From positions 310,001 to 374,000 of the forward strand of contig NC_017455.1 of the NCBI RefSeq assembly GCF_000165465.1: 64,000 bases of DNA, written 5' to 3'. Positions 6,771-30,927 of this stretch are shown in pieces. Below the pieces are notes generated by a model, which did not search any database, was not told the DNA's origin, and saw only the letters and a list, made by a program, of their open reading frames with translations. Both the position numbers and the translations under genes were made by a program. The DNA is from Halanaerobium praevalens DSM 2228. Its GTDB lineage: Bacteria > Bacillota > Halanaerobiia > Halanaerobiales > Halanaerobiaceae. How positions within the stretch are numbered: the first letter of the stretch is position 1; each line of letters opens with the position of its first letter.

Positions 6771-6846
6771 TGGTACCCTCAAGGGGATTCGAACCCCTGC
6801 CGCCAGGATGAAAACCTGGTGTCCTAGACCCCTAGACGATGAGGGC
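6771..6846 (-). tRNA. tRNA-Glu (anticodon TTC)
   Basis: The reverse complement folds as a full 76-base tRNA. The acceptor stem GCCCTCA pairs with TGAGGGT. The anticodon stem is CCAGG/CCTGG with loop TTTTCAT, giving anticodon TTC, and the T arm is AGGGG TTCGAAT CCCCT. The 3' CCA is encoded (TGG at 6771-6773 on the plus strand). Confidence 0.97.
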
Positions 6847-8508: not shown

Positions 8509-8541
8509 AAAAGAAGGGAGCTTTTGCTCCCTTTATTTTTA
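8509..8541. terminator. Bidirectional terminator between convergent genes
   Basis: AAGGGAGC (8514-8521), a TTTT loop and GCTCCCTT (8526-8533) form a perfect 8-bp stem. It is followed by TATTTTT on the plus strand and by CTTTTT on the minus strand, so it can stop both the flavoprotein and the shell-protein transcripts. Confidence 0.85.
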
Positions 8542-9099
8542 AGTTAATATTTTTGCTATTAATTTTGGTTCAGGACTTGAAATTAAGGCTTTAGAAATTA
8601 AATGCTTATTACCTAAAGCAGATTCTACTGCTTTAATAGCCTGTTTACAGGCTTCATTTTCTCCACTGAAAATAACAAAACCTTTACCACCAATAGCCAT
8701 TGCTAATTTAAGTTCTAATAGTTCAACTTCAGCTGCCTTAACTGCAATATCAGCAGCCTGAATTGTAGAACTAATATTAATATATTCTAAAATTCCTAGA
8801 GAATCAGTTATATCTTTTTTCTTTCTTTTTTTTAATAAAAGCTCTTTAACTTGTTGATTAATATTTGCTAGCAAAAAATGATTAACTAAAGCTTTTTTGT
8901 TTTTAGCAATTTCTAAGCCAGAATTTAAGGCAGTTTCTACAGCACTAACACTACCTGCAAATAAAACACTATATTTACCAGGACAGATAAATTTAGAATG
9001 AACTATTTCTACTGCAGCTGTTTTTAAAATTTGATCTGCAGTTTCAATTCCAACCGCTATTTTGGAAAATTCTATTAAAGCTAAACTATTATTATTCAT
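8539..9099 (-). CDS. PduT-type tandem-BMC shell protein, divergent copy
   Basis: This 186-residue protein has two BMC domains in tandem (about residues 5-85 and 97-180), so trimers act like one hexagonal shell tile. Domain 1 carries HSKFICPGKYS with Cys39. In PduT-family proteins this Cys-Pro-Gly-Lys motif at the pore binds a [4Fe-4S] cluster, so electron transfer across the shell is a likely function. A lysine-rich linker (LLLKKRKKKDI) joins the domains and is unusual for the family. A GTG at 9106-9108 lies inside the Shine-Dalgarno (AAAAGGTGG), so the ATG at 9099 is the better start. The gene is divergent from eutS and is a paralogue of the gene at 25814-26362. Confidence 0.85.
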   Translation of the reverse strand: MNNNSLALIEFSKIAVGIETADQILKTAAVEIVHSKFICPGKYSVLFAGSVSAVETALNSGLEIAKNKKALVNHFLLANINQQVKELLLKKRKKKDITDSLGILEYINISSTIQAADIAVKAAEVELLELKLAMAIGGKGFVIFSGENEACKQAIKAVESALGNKHLISKALISSPEPKLIAKILT

Positions 9100-9208
9100 T
9101 TTGACCACCTTTTTTAAAATTAATTTAGTTGTTCTAATGCTTATATTTTAGCAAAAGAGGCAAAAATCCTTTAAAAAAATAAAAACTTGAGTTAATTGCT
9201 AAAAGTTC

Positions 9209-9237
9209 TTGCTTTTACTAACTTATTATGATACAAT
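9209..9237 (+). promoter_or_regulatory. Promoter of the eutS-eutW transcript
   Basis: TTGCTT (9209-9214), a 17-base spacer and TACAAT (9232-9237) lie just upstream of the hairpin leader. Transcription would start near 9245. The remaining part of the intergenic stretch on the minus side (9100-9208) shows no convincing consensus promoter. Confidence 0.65.
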
Positions 9238-9260
9238 TTTTCTAAGAAAAATGAATAGTA

Positions 9261-9350
9261 GATTGCACAATGGAGTGTGATCATAACTAATAAGCAAAGA
9301 AGCTTGTAGAAAAGGGATATTTATGTCCTTTTTATACAGGCTTTTACTAT
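9261..9350 (+). promoter_or_regulatory. EutV (ANTAR) antitermination leader of eutS
   Basis: Two hairpins with six-base loops precede a terminator. Hairpin P1 is GATTGCAC (9261-9268), loop AATGGA, GTGTGATC (9275-9282). Hairpin P2 is ATAAGC (9290-9295), loop AAAGAA, GCTTGT (9302-9307). Both loops have A at position 1 and G at position 4, the known recognition features of ANTAR-domain antiterminators such as EutV. The 3' arm of P2 is also the 5' arm of a 16-bp terminator, GCTTGTAGAAAAGGGA (9302-9317) with TCCTTTTTATACAGGC (9326-9341), one mismatch, then TTTTACTATTTTTT. Binding of EutV to P1-P2 would therefore prevent the terminator. The identification rests on structure drawn by eye. Confidence 0.85.
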
Positions 9351-9385
9351 TTTTTGAGAAAAAAGTTTCAAAATGGAGGGTTCTT

Positions 9386-9748
9386 ATGGGAGAAAAAGAA
9401 GAAGTTGTAGAAAAACAAAGGATAATTCAGGAATTTGTACCTGGAAAACAGGTGACTTTAGCACATATAATTGCTAATCCCCAAGAAGGGATTTATCAGA
9501 AATTAGGTTTAGTTGATCAGGTAAATGATGCAATAGGAATTTTGACTATTACTCCCAGTGAAGCTTCAATTATTGCAGCCGATGTTGCCACAAAGGCAGC
9601 GGGTATCGAAATAGGCTTTATAGACCGTTTCAGTGGTTCTTTAGTAATTACTGGAGATGTAGCAAGTGTTGAATCATCAGTTAAAGAAATTATGAATATT
9701 TTACAGAATATATTAGATTTTACTCCAGCTAAAATTACTCGAACATAA
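9386..9748 (+). CDS. eutS: EutS/PduU-type circularly permuted BMC shell protein
   Basis: The 120-residue product begins with the extended N-terminus [21 protein letters not shown], which forms the beta barrel cap of EutS/PduU. A BMC domain with permuted order follows ([31 protein letters not shown]). It forms hexameric tiles of the ethanolamine microcompartment shell. A longer frame opens at 9323, but that ATG sits in the loop of the leader terminator. The ATG at 9386 has GGAGG seven bases upstream and matches the family's N-terminus. It is first of the eutS-P-V-W operon and is controlled by the leader at 9261-9350. Confidence 0.93.
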
Positions 9749-9766: not shown

Positions 9767-10195
9767 ATGAAAAAAGCAATGTTGATTGGAAAAAGTGGTA
9801 GTGGAAAAACTACCTTAATTCAGCTTTTAAGTTCGGAAAAAATAAGGTATAATAAAACACAGGCAATGGAATATTATCCAGAATTTATTGATACACCTGG
9901 TGAATACATTGAAAGTAGGCGTTATTATAATGCTATTATTTCTTCAGTAGACCAATGTGAAAACATGGTTTTAGTTCAAGCAGCTACTGATCATGATAGT
10001 GTTTTTCCGCCGAATTTTGCTAAAACTTTTAATCAAAATATTTTGGGTGTAATAACTAAAATAGATAAAGATTCTGCCCAAATAGAACAAGCAGAAAAAA
10101 TTCTGCAAAGAGCAGGAGTTAATAAAATTTTCAAAATTAGCTCTATCACAAAAGAAGGCTTAGCAGAATTAAAAAAGTATTTAAAAATAAAATGA
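9767..10195 (+). CDS. eutP: EutP/PduV-like small GTPase
   Basis: The 142-residue protein has the GTPase/P-loop motif GKSGSGKTT near residue 8, a DTPGE G3 motif near 43 and TKID as G4 near 104. It has the size and order of EutP, an accessory nucleotide-binding protein of ethanolamine operons; some family members act as acetate kinase, and others are linked to microcompartment positioning. It follows eutS by 18 bases and precedes eutV. Confidence 0.88.
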   Translation: MKKAMLIGKSGSGKTTLIQLLSSEKIRYNKTQAMEYYPEFIDTPGEYIESRRYYNAIISSVDQCENMVLVQAATDHDSVFPPNFAKTFNQNILGVITKIDKDSAQIEQAEKILQRAGVNKIFKISSITKEGLAELKKYLKIK

Positions 10196-10218
10196 TTTAG
10201 GTGAGAAAGGGGAAGACT

Positions 10219-10803
10219 ATGGGAAAGAAAATAGTAATAGCCGATGATGAACCTATTACTATCATGGATATCTCAGAGATTTTGACTGAGGAAGGTTACA
10301 ATGTGGTAGCTGAAGTCTCAGATGGTTTTGATGCTATTGAAGCTTGTCGTCAGCACAAACCTGATCTTGCTCTACTTGACATTAAAATGCCACTTTTAAG
10401 TGGGATTAAGGCAGCTAGGATTATTAAAGAAGAAGAATTAGCTGAAACAATAGTTTTTTTAACTGCCTATAGTAACAAAGATTTTATCAGTCAGGCAAAA
10501 GAGGTAGGTATAATGGGTTATTTAGTTAAGCCTGTAGATAAAGCAAGCTTATTACCTGTAATAGAACTTGCCATTGCTAAAGGCGAAGAAATGGTAGATA
10601 TTAAAGAAAATATTAAAGTTTTAAAAAGTAAATTAGAAAAAAGAAAATTAATCAGCAGAGCTAAAGGGATTTTAATGGATTCTGAAGGCCTCTCGGAAGA
10701 AGCAGCTTATAATAAAATTCGGAAATTAAGTATGGATAAAAGATGTTCAATGAAGGAGATAGCTCATGTAATTATTATTAACAATAATTGCCTGGGTAAT
10801 TAG
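10219..10803 (+). CDS. eutV: EutV response regulator with ANTAR RNA-binding output domain
   Basis: The receiver domain (residues 1-120) has acidic residues D9-D10, phospho-acceptor D54 in LALLDIKMPL and the conserved lysine in GYLVKPVD. The C-terminal part (about 135-190) is an ANTAR domain, with SRAKGILMDSEGLSEEAAYN and RCSMKEIAHVII. Phosphorylated EutV dimerises and binds paired hexaloop hairpins to stop terminator formation; candidate targets are the leaders at 9261 and 12251. A GTG at 10201 lies within an AGGTGAGAAAGGGGAAG ribosome-binding stretch, so ATG 10219 is chosen. The sensor kinase gene starts two bases after the stop. Confidence 0.93.
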   Translation: MGKKIVIADDEPITIMDISEILTEEGYNVVAEVSDGFDAIEACRQHKPDLALLDIKMPLLSGIKAARIIKEEELAETIVFLTAYSNKDFISQAKEVGIMGYLVKPVDKASLLPVIELAIAKGEEMVDIKENIKVLKSKLEKRKLISRAKGILMDSEGLSEEAAYNKIRKLSMDKRCSMKEIAHVIIINNNCLGN

Positions 10804-10804
10804 A

Positions 10805-12223
10805 ATGCTCAGAGAACTTTGTCAAAAAGAGACCAGACTTAGTGAACAGGATATTGAACAGTTAGAAAAATTAGCTGAGCAATTACCGAGAATTGCTAAT
10901 TTAGTTAAAGCTGATGTTTTTATTGATTGTCCAATTGATGATCCAGATGCTCTTTTAGTTGTGGCTGAAGCAAAACCTCGAGGAGCAAAAGCGATTTCTA
11001 ATTATCAAGGATCTGTTGTAGGTGAGTTAGCTGTTAGAACTAATGAGCCAGCTGCTCTAAGAACAATGGAAACTGGAGTTGGAACTCGAGATTTAAAAGC
11101 TTTAACCCAAGAAAATAAAAAGGTAAAACAAAATGTAGAGCCAATTAAAAATAAGTTAGGTAAAGTAATAGGTGTTCTCATTATGGAGCGCGATATTACA
11201 GCTGATATTAAAAAGAATAAGCAGATGGAAATTTTAACTGAAACAACAGAACAACTTTCAGATTTACTTTCATTAGATGAATCTGAAGATGTGATTGCTA
11301 ATTATATTAATGATGCAATTATTATTTTTAATAGCCAAGGTTATGCTAAATATGCTAATACTGTTGCTAAAAAATTATATTCTGATTTAGGCTATAAAGA
11401 TCAAATTAAAGGAATGCATTTTAATAATTTAACCCTAGGCCAAAAACAGTTTAGAGAATTAGCAATAGAAGTGAATTCAACCGAAAGTTTTGAAGTTAGT
11501 CTTAGTGATATGATTTTAAAAGTAAATTATTCTATGATGTACGGCAAAGATAATGTTGCTGGTTTAGTTATGTTAATTAAGGATATTACTGAAGTTAAGA
11601 AAAAAGAGAAAAAGTTAGTTTTAAAATCAGTTGCTCTAGAAGAAATACATCATCGAGTAAAGAATAATCTGCAGATGATAGCTAGCTTGCTGCGTTTGCA
11701 AGCACGTCGAGTTGATAATCAAGAAGGGCGACAAGCTCTAATAGTTAGTATTAACAGGATCTTAAGTATTGCAGTTACTCATGATATACTTTCTCAAAAT
11801 GAAATAAACGAAGTCTATATTAAAAGTATTTTAAATAAAATTATTGAAAACACCGCTGCTTATTTTTTAAATGAGCATAAAAATATTGAGATCAAATTAT
11901 TAGGAGATAATTTTATTATTGATTCTGAAAAAGCAACTTCGATTGCTTTAGTAGTTAATGAACTTTTACAAAATGCTTTAAAACATGCTTTTGAAGATCA
12001 AAAAGATGGTTTGATCAAGGTTAAAATTTATCAAGGTAATAATTATTCTAATATTACAATTAGTGATAATGGTTTAGGTTTTAATATTGAAGAAGTAAAG
12101 AAAAATCGTTTAGGTTTTAAAATTGTAAAAACAATTGTTAATGATAAATTAGGTGGACATTTAGATTTAGAATCAAGTCAACAGGGAACAAAAATTGTTT
12201 TTGATTTTAAAAATGAAATTTAA
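10805..12223 (+). CDS. eutW: EutW sensor histidine kinase
   Basis: The 472-residue kinase has no membrane segment, so it senses a cytoplasmic signal. Residues 1-140 match the N-terminal sensor domain shared by EutW and PdtaS (H_kinase_N type; FIDCPIDDPDALLVVAEAKP). A PAS-like region follows (about 165-270). The HisKA_2-type phosphotransfer helix is EEIHHRVKNNLQMIASLLRLQ, with HH near residue 284. The ATPase domain has NELLQNALKHAF and DNGLGF motifs. In known systems EutW autophosphorylates with ethanolamine and passes phosphate to EutV. There is no strong ribosome-binding site before ATG 10805, so coupling to eutV translation is likely. Confidence 0.92.
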   Translation: MLRELCQKETRLSEQDIEQLEKLAEQLPRIANLVKADVFIDCPIDDPDALLVVAEAKPRGAKAISNYQGSVVGELAVRTNEPAALRTMETGVGTRDLKALTQENKKVKQNVEPIKNKLGKVIGVLIMERDITADIKKNKQMEILTETTEQLSDLLSLDESEDVIANYINDAIIIFNSQGYAKYANTVAKKLYSDLGYKDQIKGMHFNNLTLGQKQFRELAIEVNSTESFEVSLSDMILKVNYSMMYGKDNVAGLVMLIKDITEVKKKEKKLVLKSVALEEIHHRVKNNLQMIASLLRLQARRVDNQEGRQALIVSINRILSIAVTHDILSQNEINEVYIKSILNKIIENTAAYFLNEHKNIEIKLLGDNFIIDSEKATSIALVVNELLQNALKHAFEDQKDGLIKVKIYQGNNYSNITISDNGLGFNIEEVKKNRLGFKIVKTIVNDKLGGHLDLESSQQGTKIVFDFKNEI

Positions 12224-12250: not shown

Positions 12251-12340
12251 CAAAACACAATGGGGTGTTTTGCAAAGGCAATGGGGCCAGTTTAGGGATA
12301 ACTATGTTTAGATGTTATCCTAAGCTGGCCTATTTTTTAT
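12251..12340 (+). promoter_or_regulatory. EutV (ANTAR) antitermination leader of the eutA operon
   Basis: P1 is CAAAACAC (12251-12258), loop AATGGG, GTGTTTTG (12265-12272), a perfect 8-bp stem. P2 is GGC (12277-12279), loop AATGGG, GCC (12286-12288), a short stem. Both six-base loops have A1 and G4. The P2 3' arm is shared with a strong terminator: GGCCAGTTTAGGGATAAC (12285-12302) pairs with GTTATCCTAAGCTGGCC (12314-12330) and is followed by TATTTTTTAT. No promoter is visible in 12224-12250, so it may regulate read-through from eutW into eutA. Confidence 0.88.
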
Positions 12341-12379: not shown

Positions 12380-13813
12380 TTGGATAAAATTTTAAGTGTT
12401 GGCATTGATATTGGTACCTCAACAACTCAAGTTATATTTAGTGAAATAACTTTAGAAAATATGGCTTCAGGCTTTACCGTCCCTAGAATTAATATTATTG
12501 ATAAAGAAGTTATTTATAAAAGCAATATTTATTTTACTCCCTTAATTTCTCAAACTGAAATTAATGGTGAAAAGATAAAAGAAATTGTAGAAAAAGAATT
12601 TAAAGAGGCCGGAATTGATAAAGAAAAAGTTAGTACTGGAGCTGTCATTATAACTGGTGAAACAGCCCGCAAAAAAAATGCTAGCTTAATTTCTGCACAA
12701 CTCAGTGATTTAGCTGGAGATTTTGTGGTAGCAACTGCTGGTCCAGATTTAGAATCTATTATTGCTGGTAAAGGAGCAGGAGCAGCCCAGTTATCAAAAA
12801 AAGAAAATAGAATAGTTATTAATTTTGATATAGGAGGTGGTACTACAAACATATCCGTTTTTGATTCAGGTGAGATTATTGATACAGCTTGTTTAGATAT
12901 TGGTGGTCGTTTAATTAAATTTGATCAAGATAATCAAATAATTTATGTAGCCGAAAAAATCAAAAAGTTAGCTGCTGAAATTGGGATTGAAATTAAAGAA
13001 AATACTCAATTAAAACAGTCTGATCTGAAAAAGATAACTGAAAAAATGGCAGCAATCTTAGTCGAAACAGTTGCTGCAAAAGAAAAAAGTGATCTTTATC
13101 AGTACTTAATAACTAATCACGGTTTAAGCCAGAAAATTGAGCCAGATTACATCTCATTTTCTGGAGGAGTAGCTGATTATATAGGCCAAGAAATTGAGCC
13201 AGGAGAAAACATTTTTGCTTTCAACGATATTGGTATACTTTTGGCCCAACAAATAACTCAATCTCCACTTTACCAAGATTATAAAATAGTAAAAGCAGCT
13301 GAAACAATTAGGGCAACAGTAGTTGGAGCAGGTAGTCATACCACTGATATTAGTGGTAGTACTATTACTTATAATGGAGATGTTTTCCCTCTGAAAAATG
13401 TTCCTATTATTAAAATTACAGCTAAAGAAGAAAAAGCTGACTCAGCTGAATTAATCGAGATTATTAAGAAAAAGCTGGATTGGTTTGATTTAGAATCAGA
13501 ACTACAGCCAGTTGCTCTAGCTTTAAAAGGAAAAAGCAATTTTTCTTTTAAAGAAATTACCGAATTAGCCAAAATTATAGTTAGTGGAATGGATACTATT
13601 ATTTCAAATCAACTTCCCTTAATCATTATTTTAGAAAATGATGCTGCTAAAGTTTTAGGGCAGACAATTAACCGTCTTTTAGAAAAGAAAGAAAATATTA
13701 TTTCTTTAGATGGGATTAAAGTAAATAATGGTGATTATATTGATATTGGTAAACCTTTGGCTAAAGGAAAAGTAGTGCCAGTAATAATTAAGACTTTAAT
13801 TTTTGGCAAATAA
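12380..13813 (+). CDS. eutA: EutA, ethanolamine ammonia-lyase reactivating factor
   Basis: The 477-residue product belongs to the actin/Hsp70-like ATPase superfamily. The phosphate-1 loop is VGIDIGTSTTQVIF at residues 7-20, the second loop NFDIGGGTTNISVF is near 150, and a GAGSHTTDISG motif lies near 314. EutA exchanges inactivated cobalamin in EutBC for fresh adenosylcobalamin at the cost of ATP. The start is TTG at 12380 behind GGAGGTGAGAAC. It is the first gene after the terminator-bearing leader and lies directly upstream of eutB and eutC, its target enzyme. Confidence 0.93.
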   Translation: MDKILSVGIDIGTSTTQVIFSEITLENMASGFTVPRINIIDKEVIYKSNIYFTPLISQTEINGEKIKEIVEKEFKEAGIDKEKVSTGAVIITGETARKKNASLISAQLSDLAGDFVVATAGPDLESIIAGKGAGAAQLSKKENRIVINFDIGGGTTNISVFDSGEIIDTACLDIGGRLIKFDQDNQIIYVAEKIKKLAAEIGIEIKENTQLKQSDLKKITEKMAAILVETVAAKEKSDLYQYLITNHGLSQKIEPDYISFSGGVADYIGQEIEPGENIFAFNDIGILLAQQITQSPLYQDYKIVKAAETIRATVVGAGSHTTDISGSTITYNGDVFPLKNVPIIKITAKEEKADSAELIEIIKKKLDWFDLESELQPVALALKGKSNFSFKEITELAKIIVSGMDTIISNQLPLIIILENDAAKVLGQTINRLLEKKENIISLDGIKVNNGDYIDIGKPLAKGKVVPVIIKTLIFGK

Positions 13814-28166: not shown

Positions 28167-28238
28167 TAAGTATGAATTGAATTTTAATTATTAACAAAGT
28201 TTCAGTTAATTTTTAGAAATATTAAAATTAAAAATAGA

Positions 28239-28305
28239 CCTCGTATAATTGTGATAATATGGTTCACGAGTTTCTAGTGTCAGCCGATAACTGGCAACTA
28301 TGAGG
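28239..28305 (+). promoter_or_regulatory. Purine riboswitch aptamer, guanine type
   Basis: P1 is CCTCGTA (28239-28245) with TATGAGG (28299-28305). The conserved TATAATT junction, loop AATATGG, GTTTCTA junction, P3 TGTCAG/CTGGCA with loop CCGATAA, and ACTATG closing junction match the purine class. The specificity base (position 74 of the xpt numbering) is C28298, predicting guanine or hypoxanthine rather than adenine. It controls the NCS2 permease gene. Confidence 0.93.
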
Positions 28306-28414
28306 GAAATAAATTATTCGTAATCTGCTTAATTACAGCTGTTTAGCCTATTTGGGTTAAGATTATGTCTAATTTATGCATGGATTTCATGTTTTACTTA
28401 TTGGGTATTTAACT

Positions 28415-30749: not shown

Positions 30750-30806
30750 AAAAGGATTTATTATTTAAATCTTGAATAAATATATTAAAGCAAATTAAAA
30801 TTTAAT

Positions 30807-30883
30807 CTTTTCGGGGTGCCATTATGGCTGAGAGATTTATTCAACTCGTAGAACCTGGTCTGGGTAATTCCAGTGGAGGGAAG
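30807..30883 (+). promoter_or_regulatory. TPP riboswitch (THI element)
   Basis: P1 is CTTTTC (30807-30812) with GGGAAG (30878-30883). The conserved GGGGTGCC, GGCTGAGAG (CTGAGA at 30828-30833), GAACCTG (30851-30857) and TCTGGGTAATTCCAG segments are all present. It senses thiamine pyrophosphate and controls the following transporter operon. Confidence 0.97.
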
Positions 30884-30895
30884 CTAAAAAAATTT

Positions 30896-30927
30896 AAAGC
30901 CTTCCCCTTTATTTGGGAAGGTTTTTT
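30896..30927 (+). terminator. Terminator of the TPP riboswitch
   Basis: AGCCTTCCC (30898-30906) pairs with GGGAAGGTT (30915-30923) before a T run. The 5' arm can instead pair with GGGAAGC (30878-30884), the 3' strand of aptamer P1, giving the classical on/off switch. Confidence 0.9.

Follow-up and report, generated by a model that had tools for sequence, protein, structure and literature searches.

The leader in front of eutS in H. praevalens is almost certainly an antitermination switch that would be read by EutV in the manner described for Enterococcus faecalis. We base this reading on features computed here, i.e., the anatomy of the leader, its mutually exclusive folds, its conservation, compensatory change within it, a cognate protein and two strong sites in the genome. 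The window refers throughout to the whole 64,000-nucleotide stretch of DNA that was analyzed.

Anatomy and alternative folds of the eutS leader

The leader and the genes that surround it comprise the following features.

9211..9239 (approximate), + strand: probable eutS operon promoter, TTGCTT - 17 nt - TACAAT with an extended -10 (TGATACAAT), from sequence reading
9261..9282, + strand: P1 hexaloop hairpin, GATTGCAC-AATGGA-GTGTGATC, 8 bp, from sequence, folding and covariance model
9283..9289, + strand: linker, 7 nt
9290..9307, + strand: P2 hexaloop hairpin (the antiterminator), ATAAGC-AAAGAA-GCTTGT, 6 bp, from folding and covariance model
9298..9345, + strand: intrinsic terminator hairpin, overlapping P2, from folding
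9342-9355, + strand: U-rich tail of the eutS-leader terminator, interrupted (TTTTACTATTTTTT)
9386..9748, + strand: eutS, BMC shell protein, plausible start ATG 9386
9767..10195, + strand: eutP (PF10662, TIGR02528)
10201..10803, + strand: eutV, response regulator with receiver (D60) and ANTAR domains (PF00072 and PF03861)
10805..12223, + strand: eutW, GAF_PdtaS / HisKA_2 sensor kinase (EIHHRVKNN), from domain matches
12251..12334, + strand: second ANTAR leader, with P1 CAAAACAC-AATGGG-GTGTTTTG and P2 GGC-AATGGG-GCC, from covariance model
within 12251..12334, + strand: eutA-leader terminator, GGGCCAGTTTAGGGATAAC...GTTATCCTAAGCTGGCC, with tail TATTTTTTA
12380..13813, + strand: eutA, first gene after the second leader, followed by eutB, eutC and eutL

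The initial annotation had placed two hexaloop hairpins before eutS, with A at position 1 (A1) and G at position 4 (G4) of each loop. Both were recovered, with stems longer than 3 bp (8 and 6 bp) and with A1 and G4 in the loops AATGGA and AAAGAA alike. The 7-nt linker falls inside the 5-12 nt range of the E. faecalis eut leaders, in which spacings of 3 or 14 nt are impairing (PMC3369931). When a fragment that excludes the terminator (9255-9310) was folded, P1 and P2 formed together (-15.7 kcal/mol, z -3.9). With the terminator included, the minimum free energy structure retained P1, while P2 gave way to the terminator hairpin (-23.2 kcal/mol, z -6.9). As P2 alone contributes -5.6 kcal/mol and the terminator hairpin is thus far more stable, the default state of the leader is predicted to be off.

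The terminator contains 21 pairs with one 1x1 mismatch, or 17 pairs if the four involving the first U run are set aside, a strict count close to the 16 bp that had been claimed. Also in agreement with that claim, it takes over the 3' arm of P2 (9302-9307) together with the final P2 loop bases. Given that nucleotides 9298-9307 are common to both structures, P2 and the terminator are mutually exclusive, and the two alternative folds (P1 with P2, or P1 with the terminator) bear out the exclusive arrangement first proposed from the sequence. Termination may be leaky, since the U-tract is interrupted.

Both boxes of the probable promoter are kept in H. congolense, in which the spacer has diverged. 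A consensus promoter scan did not report this promoter, because its -35 box matches at 3/6 positions and so falls below threshold. Downstream, a Shine-Dalgarno (SD) sequence, GGAGGG (9375-9380), precedes ATG 9386. The longer in-frame eutS reading from ATG 9323 begins inside the terminator loop, as had been pointed out, its A being the final base of the 4-nt loop (9320-9323). By sequence, ATG 9386 is therefore the plausible start of eutS, rather than ATG 9323. For eutV, the methionine at codon 7 (ATG 10219) is the likelier start. A divergent tandem-BMC (PduT-like) shell gene (8539-9108, - strand) adjoins the leader and, being divergent, lies outside its control. The window also holds a purine riboswitch (28221-28320), a TPP riboswitch (30802-30898) and a tRNA gene (6774-6846).

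Covariance model, conservation and distribution

No Rfam family matched the eutS leader at gathering score, and only irrelevant sub-threshold matches were obtained at E<=10. As no ANTAR-target family turned up there, this null result is not evidence against an ANTAR leader, and we therefore built a custom covariance model, R1, whose 44 training leaders came from other genera and included zero Halanaerobium sequences. Both the first scan and the choice of training leaders required A1 and G4 in the two loops; R1 itself tolerates changes at these positions. The search with an ANTAR-target model that the initial annotation had suggested as a check yielded a strong match in the window at the eutS leader (37.3 bits, E 3.3e-7) and another at the eutA leader (12251-12325, 40.7 bits), the next best match scoring 10.9 bits. 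The eutA leader, which has AATGGG in both loops and a strong terminator, was absent from the initial annotation. In H. congolense, the first loop of the corresponding leader (L032:4472-4507) reads GATGAA (A1 to G), with P2 and the terminator identical to those of the window, and so varies naturally at a position that is reportedly required in E. faecalis.

Across the whole single-contig genome of 2,309,262 bp, R1 detected the eutS leader at E 1.2e-5 and the eutA leader at E 1.7e-6. The next-best match (E 0.13) had no overlapping terminator, and weaker genome-wide matches (<=20.4 bits) were dropped on the same ground. The eutS and eutA leaders are the sole two convincing R1 targets in the genome.

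We next compared 80 eut loci that contain a EutV relative (L032-L111). R1 found 153 sites at E<=0.01, every one on the sense strand. These lay before eutA in 62/80 loci and before eutS in 50/77; two were counted before eutV, and none before eutP, eutW, eutB, eutC or eutL. The first scanner had found leaders before only 27/76 eutS genes; it under-counted homologous leaders because it demanded A1 in both loops.

Related leaders were also inspected for compensatory changes, a further check that had been proposed. Pair counts from one alignment (A4) were biased, since its members had been chosen for long stems, and the covariation test was therefore repeated on a set of 55 leaders for which loop sequence had been the sole basis of selection. 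In these, P1 pairs 3-6 were paired in 89-98% of leaders, compared with 47-74% after shuffling, and 0/500 shuffles reached the observed values, i.e., compensatory change is present and strong in P1. The 138 distinct R1 matches (alignment A5) gave 294 double-change cells against 99 in shuffles, in an alignment that itself leans towards structure. The H. congolense leader carries a one-sided change in P1 with pairing kept. A missing model match and missing covariation were the two computational outcomes that the initial annotation had named as speaking against its reading; both were looked for, and the finding survived.

R1 sites (E<=0.01) were then surveyed in 38 genomes of the order. They occurred only in the window genome, in H. 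congolense and in a third genome (G005), and these three are the genomes with the closest EutV. Three further Halanaerobium genomes (G011, G013 and G020), whose eutB is 80-86% identical, had neither an ANTAR protein nor an R1 site. The genus thus offers a clean natural control, in which eut enzymes without EutV go with absent leaders. Seven further genomes of the order encode distant ANTAR proteins and have no R1 site, indicating that R1 recognizes targets of the EutV class, but not all ANTAR targets.

The arrangement of eut genes varied among these relatives. In G005, the ANTAR leader (L004:2110-2159) lies directly behind a EutV-like gene and ~1.5 kb before eutB, and a EutW-like gene was not found in the 1.4 kb upstream of this leader; the parts are the same, in a different arrangement. 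G011 and G013 (L141, L142) each carry two adjacent eutB-like genes, ~86% and ~61% identical to EutB of the window, the closer copy with an in-frame TAG counted. Control of eut in these two genomes must differ, as they have no ANTAR protein.

EutV, EutW and the proposed switch

The genome encodes both an ANTAR protein and a sensor kinase suited to such a leader. EutV is its only ANTAR-domain protein, eutW (GAF_PdtaS, HisKA_2) follows directly 3' of eutV, and both genes are located between the eutS and eutA leaders. EutV of H. congolense, the nearest named relative, is 97% identical to that of the window. The best PDB match of EutV is the response regulator 6wsh/6ww6 (E 3e-55), whose residue numbering (D54, Y164, M172) identifies it as the E. 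faecalis EutV described in PMC8934654. That study names 11 RNA-contact residues, of which eight are shared (R142, K143, K149, E160, Y164, R168, M172, R175) and three differ (K147R, N173D, R177S). The phospho-acceptor D54 corresponds to D60. The attribution of the leader to EutV, which had been made without database searches, is supported by the covariance model, the compensatory changes and the EutV/EutW pair in the operon.

By analogy with the E. faecalis EutV studies, from which ligand, phosphorylation, binding order and read-through are taken, the switch would work as follows. The transcript would begin near 9245 and by default fold into P1 and the terminator, so that transcription stops ahead of eutS. 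In the presence of ethanolamine, EutW would phosphorylate EutV at D60; the phosphorylated protein would dimerize and bind the hexaloops via its ANTAR domain, thereby holding P2 and the nucleotides that it has in common with the 5' arm of the terminator. Polymerase could then continue into eutS-eutP-eutV-eutW, and the second switch, before eutA, would gate the eutABC part of the operon. EutV-dependent relief of termination has been shown for E. faecalis (PMC8934654; PMC3369931). Because eutVW sit behind the first switch, positive feedback is expected, unless eutVW have an internal promoter.

Might the leader instead be a plain intrinsic terminator or attenuator, in which the two hexaloop hairpins are coincidental? 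No element of the leader is more stable than the terminator (z -6.9), and hairpins form easily in AT-rich DNA. When the window was dinucleotide-shuffled 60 times, however, a dual hexaloop with any terminator arose as a weak match 0.28 times per shuffle, and zero matches attained the strength of the eutS leader (P1 of at least 6 bp, terminator of -18 kcal/mol or lower). Neither would coincidence readily account for an E-value of 3.3e-7 from a model trained on other genera, for compensatory change in P1, which itself lies outside the terminator, or for a leader that is present only where EutV is present. We regard this explanation as very improbable.

It is equally improbable that the site is an ANTAR target acting in another mode, i.e., translation control or sequestration of EutV by a EutX-like sponge. 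ANTAR targets are known, or have been proposed, to act in both ways (PMC5821096; PMC3369931), but here the overlap between terminator and P2 is precise, the SD sequence lies outside both structures, no B12 aptamer occurs in the vicinity and the site is immediately followed by a gene. A leader peptide or a small-molecule riboswitch attenuator is less probable still. ATG 9323 does open a frame into eutS, yet that frame has no credible SD sequence and begins in the terminator loop, and Rfam gave no match at gathering score and only irrelevant ones at E up to 10. Chance hairpins, plain terminator, leader peptide and riboswitch were all rejected as readings of the eutS leader in favor of the EutV switch.

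EutX, loop position 1 and comparison with known systems

A 2018 review asked whether EutV loci without a neighboring B12 riboswitch hide EutX elsewhere (PMC5821096). The genome of H. praevalens contains six cobalamin riboswitches; within 1.5 kb of these, neither a dual hexaloop nor an R1 match >11.9 bits was found. RF01482 had no match above its cut-off in the genome, and the combination seen in the EutX/Rli55 sponge, with an ANTAR site downstream of an AdoCbl aptamer, was found nowhere genome-wide. Four Paenibacillus/Brevibacillus eut loci served as a control and gave an ANTAR-like site downstream of an AdoCbl aptamer, at 16.7-18.8 bits. These four elements (L087:5224-5556, L099:4995-5436, L103:5247-5569, L105:4505-4836) lie upstream of eut genes and, by sequence, are probable EutX/Rli55-type sponge RNAs. 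From the genome search and the four positive controls, we conclude that no EutX is recognizable in this complete genome, for which the answer to the question in the review is that search finds none. A degenerate or single-hexaloop sponge may still be present.

Among the 138 distinct R1 matches, G4 was invariant in both loops and hexaloop position 2 was almost always A. Position 1 was G in 32 second loops and in three first loops, one of these being the H. congolense eutA leader. The rule for the second loop looks like R-A-N-G. In E. faecalis eutP, a change of A to U at loop position 1 was impairing, and the available part of that work (PMC3369931) contains no test of A to G. We tentatively suggest, as a combined proposal somewhat less likely to hold than to fail, that the EutV system of H. 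praevalens does without a EutX sponge, AdoCbl thus being either outside eut control or feeding into it by another route, and that throughout the family what is recognized at position 1 of the second loop is a purine and not strictly A.

The EutV/EutW leaders of E. faecalis (eutP, eutG, eutS, eutA; PMC8934654 for the structure, PMC3369931) share with those of H. praevalens the dual hexaloops with A1 and G4, the short linker, a P2 that overlaps an intrinsic terminator, the cognate EutV/EutW pair and sites before both eutS and eutA. H. praevalens differs in having two sites and not four, in having eutS as its first gene, in the three EutV substitutions noted above and in that no EutX-like, B12-controlled sponge RNA was detected. 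Motif, operon positions and structure are likewise the same in the leaders of Clostridium, Paenibacillus, Geosporobacter and the other loci compared; unlike H. praevalens, many of these have three sites, one of them further upstream, and in the four checked Paenibacillus/Brevibacillus loci an ANTAR-like site also lies close to an AdoCbl aptamer. The AmiR/amiE and NasR/nasF leaders, likened here by description, belong to the same RNA class according to PMC3369931, with input domains and target genes that differ from those of the EutV system.

The eutS leader is an ordinary case of EutV/ANTAR dual-hexaloop antitermination (Ramesh 2012), with no new mechanism, and the site itself leaves current views unchanged. 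What H. praevalens adds is a EutV regulon that is complete, with two switches, in an anaerobic halophile from beyond the genera studied so far. With one ANTAR protein and two targets, this regulon is very small. The leader is a further, well-supported instance of a mechanism that had been elucidated in Enterococcus and Listeria.
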